This document shows, one piece after another, positions 54,887 to 58,931 of a stretch of DNA of 64,000 nt. The stretch's first letter is position 1; every line of letters begins with the position of its first letter. Source of the DNA: Thermoplasmatales archaeon (GTDB taxonomy: Archaea; Thermoplasmatota; Thermoplasmata; Thermoplasmatales; Thermoplasmataceae). The notes beneath the pieces were generated by a model. That model was not told where the DNA came from. It saw only the letters and a program-made list of their open reading frames with translations, and did not search any database. The position numbers and the translations under genes were made by a program. The DNA is taken from assembly GCA_026127925.1 (NCBI GenBank), contig JAJSLM010000001.1, positions 124,001 to 188,000 on the forward strand, in the 5' to 3' direction.

Positions 54887-56311
54887 TTATTTCTTTGCTG
54901 ATGGTAGCACCAGTTTTGGAAATCCATGTTCATGTTTATATGATGCCAAGGCAATTTCCTCTAGCGTAAGCCCCTTCGTCTCAGGTGTATAGAATATTGT
55001 AAAGAGGAAAGCACCCACCATAATGATCAGCAGTATCGTAAAGAATCCCGCGTGCCCAAGAACCGTTGGTTTTGAAAGGAATGGGAACAGAAATGCAGAG
55101 AGAAACGACACAATTCTGGTTATTCCTGTGGCGCTACCCATAGAGGATGAACGAAGTTTTGTGGGCAAGAGTTCTATTGCGTATAAGCCCATCGTGTTAC
55201 CCGGGCCCAAGTTTCCAATTCCGTAATCAATGATAAAGGCCAGTATTCCTATTGAGAGGAACAATACACCGGTACCACTAGAAGCAAAGAAGAACATAAG
55301 CATCGCTACGGCCATGCCGCCGAACCCAATGATCTGCAACGGTCTCCTGCCTACCCTATCATTGAGCATAACCGCCCCAAATGCACCTAGGAATCCAATA
55401 GGCATGTAAAATATGAACGAAAAAAGCAGTGATGTTGATCCAGAAACTCCGAGGCCCTTTAGAATAAGGGGCGAATAGAGTCCAATCCCATAGCCTGCAA
55501 TGTCATACATTATCCACTGAATCCATACTATTGCAGTACGCTTTCCGTATTCTCCTTTGAAAAGTGAAGCCAACGACCCAGAGGCTATGTTAACTTCCCT
55601 CTGTCTTTCATCAAGAAGCGCCTTCAGATCGGTTGGTGTAATGCCTATCTTCTCTGCAACCTTGTTTACGCTTGATCCAGGGATCAAACCCTCTTCAACA
55701 ACCTTCCATCTGGTTGATTCGGGCATTCTTGTCCTCAAGATGACAACTATTACCGCGGGAATGGCTCCAAGTCCAAGAGTGTATCTCCAACCGGTCAAAG
55801 GATCATGAAGGTAGAGTATCCATCCTATCAGAAATGCCGCCGCCGCTCCTATGCTCCAGAACGTCCATACCCAACCGTATCCCGCCCCTCTCTTCTTGTT
55901 AGGATACATTTCTGTCGAATATACTGGGCTGAGAGCATAATCTGCACCGACCCCCCATCCGACAAAGAACCTGAAGATTATCATCTCGTATATGTTCGTC
56001 GAAAATGCAGTCAGTAAGGCAAATACGGCAAAGAATACCAGATCGAAAATATACAGATATCTTCGTCCTATCCTATCTGCATAATGCCCAAAGAGTACCG
56101 CACCCACAAAAGCCCCGAGAAGAGCGGATCCAGTTACAAAAGACTCAGTTAAAGAGTCATACGGAAATATTTTATAAGTAACTAAGACCAACGTAAATAC
56201 CGAAATAACGCTCAAATCATATCCATCTAAAAAATAACCCATGGCAGAAAGCGTTGTAATTACAGAACGTCTCGGAACATGTACATCACCAGTGCCTCGT
56301 ACATTCTCCAT
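54887..56311 (-). CDS. MFS transporter, sugar-porter-like
   Basis: The 474-aa protein has 12 helices in two halves. Typical signatures are GHYADRIGRRYLYIFDL and LNDRVGRRPLQIIGF (loops 2-3 and 8-9), PESTRWKVVEEG after helix 6, and PETKGLTLEEI at the end. A sugar, polyol or organic acid is the probable substrate; glycerol kinase close by on the other side of the IS makes a carbon source plausible. The IS element now ends 5 bases before its ATG, so its original promoter is displaced by about 0.9 kb (see the TATA box at 57245). Confidence 0.92.
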   Translation of the reverse strand: MENVRGTGDVHVPRRSVITTLSAMGYFLDGYDLSVISVFTLVLVTYKIFPYDSLTESFVTGSALLGAFVGAVLFGHYADRIGRRYLYIFDLVFFAVFALLTAFSTNIYEMIIFRFFVGWGVGADYALSPVYSTEMYPNKKRGAGYGWVWTFWSIGAAAAFLIGWILYLHDPLTGWRYTLGLGAIPAVIVVILRTRMPESTRWKVVEEGLIPGSSVNKVAEKIGITPTDLKALLDERQREVNIASGSLASLFKGEYGKRTAIVWIQWIMYDIAGYGIGLYSPLILKGLGVSGSTSLLFSFIFYMPIGFLGAFGAVMLNDRVGRRPLQIIGFGGMAVAMLMFFFASSGTGVLFLSIGILAFIIDYGIGNLGPGNTMGLYAIELLPTKLRSSSMGSATGITRIVSFLSAFLFPFLSKPTVLGHAGFFTILLIIMVGAFLFTIFYTPETKGLTLEEIALASYKHEHGFPKLVLPSAKK

Positions 56312-56316
56312 TAAAG

Positions 56317-57222
56317 ATTCTAACTCCGTACGATCTTAGGGTATAACTTCAATCCAAATGCATCTGCAATCTTCTGTGATCTATCAGGGATCTCTGCCAC
56401 AGATCTTCTTGCCCCATCCGCTATGACATATATCTTTGAAAGTTCGAACAGTGCATCCTTCACAGATATTTTCTGTGAGAGCTTCTTCTCCTTCAGCGTC
56501 TCAAGGATGCTGAAGTAGATATACAGCGATACGAAAGATATGAAGAAATATCCCCTGATGCCGTCAGTTGTGTGCAGATACGATTTGTCGTTCTCCAGCT
56601 CGTTCTTCATGGAATCGAATGCGACCTCCACCTCTTCCCGTGACTTGTAGAGTTCGTATATCTCTTTCGGGTCTGATCTCAGGTTGCTCAGTATTGCGAA
56701 TTTTCCAAGCTTGTTTCTCTCAATTATAAGATCTTTCTGTTTCATCTCTCCGCTCTCGATCTTTCTTATCATATTGGTCTCCTCCTCTGCCCTGATCATG
56801 GACATGGCCAATATCTCTGACCAGTGATCTGGAAACCTGTGTTTCAGCTCCGGGATCAGATCTGAAGCAGCTGATAGCAGGAGCTCGGAATTCCCGAATT
56901 CGTATATGGTCCTGCGATTGCGCTCGACAAGGCCATACTCAGTGATCCTTCCTATGTATTCCGATACCTTGACCCTCTTCTTTCTCTCCTTATCCCATCT
57001 CGTTGTGTCCCTATAGAGATAATAGGAATTCCCCTTAGGTTTCACCTCCACAGGAATGCCTCTCTCCTCTCCGATCTTCTTTGCAGCTTTGAGTATCTCT
57101 GGATTCATATATACAGTAATAGGGTATACACATTAATAAACTATTCTATCATCAGAACAAGCAAAATACAGCTACCAATGCAACGATGAATCTTATACCC
57201 TAAGAAACTGAGGAGTTAGAAT
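56317..57222. mobile_element. internally deleted IS4-type element with 30-bp terminal repeats
   Basis: The ends are 30-bp inverted repeats (56317-56346 and 57193-57222) that agree at 25 of 30 positions, including ATTCTAACTCC and CTTAGGGTATAA blocks. The same bases flank both ends: ATTAAAG at 56310-56316 and at 57221-57227, of which TAAAG lies fully outside the repeats, so it is a target duplication of 5-7 bp. The 906-bp element carries one transposase-derived frame whose stop lies within the left repeat. It is inserted just before the start codon of the MFS gene. Confidence 0.88.
56320..57108 (-). pseudogene. internally deleted IS4-family transposase
   Basis: The 262-aa frame joins the N-terminal part of a transposase (residues 1 to about 107) to the C-terminal part. 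The IS4-family signature Y-x2-R-x3-E-x6-K is intact (Tyr154, Arg157, Glu161, Lys168, in YELYKSREEVEVAFDSMK), with GKFAILSNL before it. The region that should hold the first two catalytic aspartates is missing between about residues 107 and 115, so relatives would be longer by some hundreds of residues and this copy cannot be active by itself. The deletion is in frame. Confidence 0.82.
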
Positions 57223-57244
57223 TAAAGAATTAAGCATTGGCGTC

Positions 57245-57253
57245 TATTTAAAT
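57245..57253 (-). promoter_or_regulatory. displaced TATA box of the MFS gene
   Basis: ATTTAAATA on the minus strand lies just outside the right end of the IS. If the IS and one target copy are removed, it lands about 27 nt before the MFS start codon, exactly the spacing seen at other leaderless genes in the window. In the present arrangement it is about 0.93 kb away. Confidence 0.6.
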
Positions 57254-57437
57254 TTTTCTGGCGATAAATTTTATTGAATCGATGTACAGTGCAATTTTTA
57301 TGGGAACACGGACTAATTCCTTTGTCAGATCTGATACCCTCTTGAAATATTGGGGCTGGATTCTTATTTTCATCTCTTTATTATACGATATTTTGCAATA
57401 GACAAATGCTTAAGTATTTCAATCATGATTGTTTCTC

Positions 57438-58931
57438 GTGAGAAAAGACAAGTACATTCTATCTCTGGATGAAGGTACAACAAATGCTAGGGCCATAGTT
57501 TGGAACTTTGCCGGTAAACCATGCGGGATAGGTCATGATTCTTTCCCTCAGTATTTTCCGTATCCCGGCTGGGTAGAGCACAATCCTGAGGAGATATGGC
57601 TTGCTCAGAAGAATGCTATGAATGATGCCATCGTTTCTGCAAATATTGACTACGACAGCATAAGTGCCATAGGTATTACAAATCAGAGAGAAACTACTGT
57701 TCTGTGGAATAAAAATACGGGAAAACCGATACATAACGCCATTGTGTGGCAGGATCGCCGAACCTCACCTCTTCTTGATGAATTGAAGGATGACTATAAT
57801 GTAATTAGGGGAAGAACAGGTTTGATACCTGATCCATATTTCAGTGCATTCAAGATAAAGTGGCTCTTAAGTGAGGTCCCAAAAGCAAGTGAACTGGCAA
57901 AAAGGAACGATCTAAATTTTGGAACAATAGATTCCTGGTTGCTCTGGAAACTGTCCGGAGGTAAATTGCATTTGACGGATTATACGAACGCCTCAAGAAC
58001 GATGCTATTCAACATAAATACACTTGAGTGGGACGATGAATTATTAGATATATTCAAAATACCTAAAAACATCCTTCCTGAGGTCATGCCTTCAAGTTTC
58101 ATATACGGGTACAGTGATAAATCAGTAACTAAAGTAGAAATACCGATATCGAGCATGATTGGCGACCAGCAATCCGCGTTGGTTGGTCAACTTGCACTTT
58201 CCCCAGGAGAATCCAAAAACACATATGGAACTGGATCTTTTGTTGTTGTCAATACCGGAGATAAACCCCGAAAGACCAGCAATTTAGTGACCACAATAGC
58301 ATACAGTTTCCAGAGAAATAGGGTATCCTACGCGATTGAAGGGAGCATATTCGTGACTGGTGCTGCTATACAGTGGCTTAAGGACGGGTTGAAATTATTT
58401 GAAAACTCCGACGAAGTGGAATCTATGGCAAAGAGCGTCAATGGGAATAACGGAGTTTATTTTGTTCCCGCGTTAACGGGTCTAGGAGCCCCTTACTGGG
58501 ATCCATATGCACGAGGTCTCATAATAGGTCTTACAAGGGACACAACGCAGGCAGTTCTTGCCAGAAGTGCTCTTGAATCCATAGCTTATCAAACAAACGA
58601 TGTACTTAGAGCAATCAAAGAGGATGTAAATTTGGACCTAAAGGAATTAAACGTTGATGGGAATGCTGCAACAAATGATTTCCTAATGCAGTTTCAAGCA
58701 GATATATCAAACATAAGCGTTAAGCGGCCAAAGATCCTGGAGACAACATCGCGAGGTGCAGGATTTATGGCTGGTATAGCTACGGATTTCTGGAAGATTT
58801 CTGATCTCGCCAGTTTGTGTGTGACCGATAAAGTATTTTACCCGAATATGAACGAGGAATATCGATCAAGATTATACAATAAATGGCGGGAAGCGGTTGA
58901 AAGATCCAGGAACTGGGCGAAGGATCTGTGA
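57438..58931 (+). CDS. glpK: glycerol kinase
   Basis: The 497-aa FGGY kinase phosphorylates glycerol to sn-glycerol-3-phosphate. N-terminal YILSLDEGTTNARAIVWN, GITNQRETTVLWNKNTGKPIHNAIVWQDRR, SMIGDQQSALVGQLAL, NTYGTGSFVVVNTG and the C-terminal ETTSRGAGFMAG region are all typical. GTG 57438 is taken as start, with ATGCTTAAGTATTT centred about 27 nt upstream; TTG 57429 is an in-frame alternative. With GlpA it forms the route from glycerol to dihydroxyacetone phosphate. Confidence 0.95.
   Translation: MRKDKYILSLDEGTTNARAIVWNFAGKPCGIGHDSFPQYFPYPGWVEHNPEEIWLAQKNAMNDAIVSANIDYDSISAIGITNQRETTVLWNKNTGKPIHNAIVWQDRRTSPLLDELKDDYNVIRGRTGLIPDPYFSAFKIKWLLSEVPKASELAKRNDLNFGTIDSWLLWKLSGGKLHLTDYTNASRTMLFNINTLEWDDELLDIFKIPKNILPEVMPSSFIYGYSDKSVTKVEIPISSMIGDQQSALVGQLALSPGESKNTYGTGSFVVVNTGDKPRKTSNLVTTIAYSFQRNRVSYAIEGSIFVTGAAIQWLKDGLKLFENSDEVESMAKSVNGNNGVYFVPALTGLGAPYWDPYARGLIIGLTRDTTQAVLARSALESIAYQTNDVLRAIKEDVNLDLKELNVDGNAATNDFLMQFQADISNISVKRPKILETTSRGAGFMAGIATDFWKISDLASLCVTDKVFYPNMNEEYRSRLYNKWREAVERSRNWAKDL

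Follow-up and report, generated by a model that had tools for sequence, protein, structure and literature searches.

What becomes of a gene when an insertion sequence (IS) settles between its promoter and its start codon? This question is raised by an MFS transporter gene in the window, the whole 64,000-nucleotide stretch of DNA from an acidophilic Thermoplasmatales archaeon that we have analysed. The host genome (G000) is a 1.73-Mb draft of 17 contigs, and the insert lies inside a 441-kb contig. By sequence, the glucose transporter GlcP (4lds) is both the best phmmer match of the MFS protein and the closest protein of solved structure. The insertion site is composed of the following features:

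54887 to 56311, minus strand: MFS transporter gene, sugar porter-like, 474 aa, ATG at 56311 (Pfam Sugar_tr, 3.3e-64)
56310 to 56316: direct repeat ATTAAAG on the gene side, overlapping the start codon in its first two bases
56317 to 57222, minus strand: IS1634-family element, internally deleted, 906 bp, delimited by its inverted repeats and by comparison with a full-length relative
56317 to 56346: MFS-side terminal inverted repeat, which holds the transposase stop, a GGAG motif and TTATACC
57193 to 57222: promoter-side terminal inverted repeat
57221 to 57227: direct repeat ATTAAAG on the promoter side
57429 to 58931, plus strand: glycerol kinase gene, divergent, on the far side of the intergenic region (context only)

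Between 51996 and 60777, the MFS gene is found near the glycerol kinase gene and two ORFs named by reading their translations, one resembling an FAD-dependent glycerol-3-phosphate dehydrogenase and the other an aldehyde dehydrogenase. The neighbourhood hints at a locus for glycerol or sugar utilisation. An Rfam search of the window returned two tRNAs only.

The preliminary description of this DNA had reported ATTAAAG on both sides of a 906-bp element with 30-bp inverted repeats, and all of these were found in place. The terminal inverted repeats (30 nt) are 83% complementary, and the limits of the element match those of an independent full-length copy (L103:3279-4790). The promoter-side ATTAAAG copy shares two bases with the end of the element, the net insert being 911 bp. 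Because of this overlap, 5-6 bp is a more fitting length for the target duplication (CTTTA or TCTTTA, according to how the end is placed). The duplication is AT-rich, as are the 5-6 bp target duplications of the IS1634 family, whose elements measure 1500-2000 bp (PMC2266710). On the minus strand, the first junction reads AATTCTTTA followed by ATTCTAACTCC, and the second reads GGAGTTAGAAT followed by CTTTAATGGAG. The insert has the orientation of the MFS gene, with the start codon (56311, minus strand) located 5 nt from the near end of the IS. A separation of about 0.93 kb between promoter box and start codon had also been described, which agrees with the 934 bp that we have measured.

We have looked for an uninterrupted version of the site among 117 genomes of the order. 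The best MFS ortholog (93% aa identity) is carried by Thermoplasmata archaeon DBS1-1.bin48 (G046, JAJYEP010000002.1), where the MFS gene has another ORF as its upstream neighbour. Its upstream sequence GAAAATTTAAATATAGAAGAGTGTTTAATTCTGCCATGGAAAATGTA could be aligned without gaps to the joined window flanks AAAAATTTAAATAGACGCCAATGCTTAATTCTTTAATGGAGAATGTA, and it contains the identical box AAAATTTAAATA at -34, with the same spacing as in the joined flanks. About a dozen further orthologs, including that of Ferroplasma acidarmanus (NC_021592.1), have a TTTAAATA-, TTAATATA- or TTTATATA-like box at -32 to -34, and a few show other upstream layouts. This supported two earlier proposals, namely that a relative lacking the IS should match the rebuilt sequence and that the rebuilt box would lie at the normal leaderless spacing, about 27 nt before the ATG. 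Since the position of the box is shared by G046 and the dozen orthologs, the MFS gene was very probably leaderless before the insertion. The joined flanks also contain an in-frame ATG 15 nt upstream of the MFS start (GTG in G046), which is too near the box for a usual start. Further MFS orthologs with 76-78% identity (L119, L124-L129 and L140) come from entries whose titles name Parvarchaeota, Nanoarchaeota or Acidifodinimicrobium. Most of them share the TTTAAATA box, at -33/-34, and they reflect either gene exchange with Thermoplasmatales or binning error.

The matrix used to score promoters was derived from 162 upstream regions in ten 20-kb stretches of the own genome. It came from a seeded motif search, since the motif returned without a seed was unfocused. 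The resulting motif was AAAATTTAAATA, with a preferred start at -32 to -35. Two boxes directed towards the MFS gene were predicted:

57245 to 57256, minus strand: original MFS promoter box AAAATTTAAATA, with a predicted transcription start at 57222, the outermost base of the IS
57134 to 57145, minus strand: promoter box of the transposase, AATAGTTTATTA, at -37 relative to its ATG, kept in G033 (another genus of the same family) and G001 (same genus)

The native TATA/BRE box starts at -34 in the joined flanks, with TTTAAATA centred near -27. It has the consensus sequence at a favoured position and a score of 10.4, which was reached by none of 20,000 random stretches. The window contains about 0.01 boxes of this strength per kb and strand, which, together with the equally spaced empty site of G046, speaks against a chance match. 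Transcription was predicted to start 34 nt from the start of the box, which gives position 57222. The native promoter survives the insertion, co-directional with the MFS gene and with its predicted start at the IS border, and the insertion has abolished its leaderless spacing. The transposase box scores 7.2, a value reached by 0.8% of random stretches, and the sequence from this box through to the ATG is near-identical in G033 and G001. The coding part of the transposase contained no box above 5 facing the MFS gene. A second box-like stretch, AATGCTTAATTC (57227-57238, minus strand, 7.5 bits; AGTGTTTAATTC with 7.0 bits in G046), precedes the MFS start by 16 nt where the site is empty, and here stands directly outside the IS.

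The element itself was compared with the full-length copy L103, which belongs to G033, is 1512 bp long and has a single 464-aa frame. Two features of the window copy emerged:

56320 to 57108, minus strand: remnant transposase ORF, 262 aa, without 202 residues that include both catalytic aspartates
56783 to 56790, minus strand: deletion junction with a single GCAGAGGA copy left, two copies being present 606 bp apart in the full-length relative

The two elements are 92-93% identical on either side of a 606-bp gap, and the 8-bp GCAGAGGA is present at both gap edges in the L103 copy and once in the window IS. This is the signature of a deletion between short direct repeats, by which the window IS has lost 606 bp. 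The transposase frame survives because 606 is a multiple of three. Regarding the DDE triad, the glutamate region YKSREEVEVAFDSMK was retained, and the 202 deleted residues contain both aspartate regions of the intact relative, whose catalytic aspartates we have presumptively assigned from family knowledge and not by structure. When compared with the NCBIfam IS1634 model (cut-off 100), the intact L103 transposase scored 134.7 bits, whereas the remnant scored 87.7 bits and covered only positions 344-482 of the profile (its last third). With its 906 bp, the window IS is outside the size range of the family, its closest intact copy having 1512 bp. These comparisons identify it as a truncated derivative of an IS1634-family member and not as an intact member.

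The deletion junction was absent from 388 other genomes of the phylum sample and from the viral contigs scanned, and no further close copy of the IS was found in the own genome. Such a unique junction and the lack of other close copies indicate that the IS very probably can no longer move, except with the help of a related transposase in trans. Apparent partial copies in G001, G015 and G071 were rejected as miniature elements, being mostly contig ends. Of a related transposase, the same genome carries a decayed N-terminal piece with 62% identity and one stop (G000:C3:72574-72903).

The transposase TAG is followed by AATCTTTA and then by the MFS ATG, the distance from stop to ATG being 8 nt. 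No T-run was found between the transposase stop and the MFS ATG, nor was there an evident terminator between the promoters and the MFS gene. Transcription from both the native and the transposase promoter would traverse the transposase remnant in the sense direction, into the MFS gene. With two promoters aimed at the gene and no terminator-like stretch, transcription as a second cistron is most likely. The MFS start now has an anti-Shine-Dalgarno (SD) pairing energy of -5.0 kcal/mol, provided by the GGAG in the inverted repeat. The medians in the own genome are -5.3 kcal/mol for close downstream cistrons (n=37), which tend to show SD-like pairing, and -2.4 kcal/mol for isolated genes (n=155), which do not and to which the MFS gene used to belong. 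The GGAG motif is located 12 nt from the ATG, a spacing above the usual one, and about 10-15% of random 22-mers pair equally well. The pairing is now like that of close downstream cistrons, so the mode of expression has likely changed, without the gene being necessarily silenced.

We therefore favour, with reasonable though not high confidence, the following history. An IS1634-family element, oriented like the gene, transposed to where the leaderless MFS gene had its transcription start and start codon. Before or after landing, it lost 606 bp by recombination between the 8-bp GCAGAGGA repeats, leaving a dead, single-copy insert. Both promoters would then transcribe the MFS gene as second cistron of a transposase-remnant/MFS message, and an SD-like or reinitiation route would replace translation of the leaderless mRNA. 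The upstream transposase ORF could hinder this translation. Within this history, the sequences show the insertion, the empty site, the deletion, the conserved promoter box and its lost spacing, and from these we infer co-transcription, the way of translation and the level of expression. Our broader proposal, that the gene has become the second cistron, dependent on SD or reinitiation, in a fixed operon with a dead transposase and thus exemplifies a natural switch between archaeal initiation modes, is more tentative. The IS1634-family assignment with the in-frame 606-bp deletion and loss of the aspartates, the intact native promoter and the transposase stop 8 nt before the MFS ATG are additions to the preliminary description.

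That description had left three fates for the gene, of which read-through is the best supported. Silencing comes next and is possible, if rather unlikely: without leaderless translation, and with poor translation of a message whose start lies 0.9 kb upstream, the gene would be largely silenced. The leaderless layout conserved across orthologs is indeed broken here, and the SD-like motif is weak and at a long spacing. Besides, the same-genus G001 (85% complete) had no MFS match above 37% identity, which suggests that the gene is dispensable. However, the MFS ORF is intact, without stops, and two co-directional promoters lie upstream with no evident terminator. The dN/dS of 0.029 against the G046 ortholog mostly reflects pre-insertion time, since a single genome carries the insert.

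The third fate, a new leaderless promoter supplied by the IS end, seems improbable. The TATA-like heptamer TTATACC does lie at 56346-56340 (minus strand), as had been noted, roughly 30-35 nt before the MFS ATG. Its matrix score at -40 was however only 2.1 bits, which 30% of random 36-nt stretches equal, and we have rejected it as a promoter. Compared with the favoured starts (-32 to -35), it is about 6 nt too far upstream, and it consists of transposase codons that belong to the inverted repeat. A 17-contig draft might suggest that the insert is a chimera of the assembly or a variant carried by a minority of the population, but this is highly improbable given the clean target duplication, the single copy inside a large contig and a deletion junction that sits at microhomology and recurs in no other genome checked.

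As a general phenomenon, the insertion of an IS upstream of a gene is commonplace. This locus amounts to a clean natural experiment, in which the filled and empty sites are both known and have an identical promoter box, so that one can measure what follows when a leaderless promoter is shifted 0.9 kb away from its gene. The element resembles the IS1634 family (formerly in IS4) in the C-terminal third of its transposase, its 5-6 bp AT-rich duplication and its 1512-bp single-ORF relative, but differs in its 906 bp and in the loss of 202 codons with both catalytic aspartates. Like internally deleted non-autonomous derivatives (MITE-like or MIC-like), it has retained both ends and lost its interior at a short direct repeat; unlike them, it is a single copy with no sign of mobilisation, and its 906 bp, above the typical MITE size, contain an in-frame ORF. 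IS1 and IS5 upstream of Escherichia coli bgl change the expression of the neighbouring gene (PMC11043490). In both cases the regulatory region of an uptake gene is altered by an IS located upstream. Unlike those at bgl, the IS studied here lies between a leaderless archaeal promoter and the start codon, where it would change the mode of translation.
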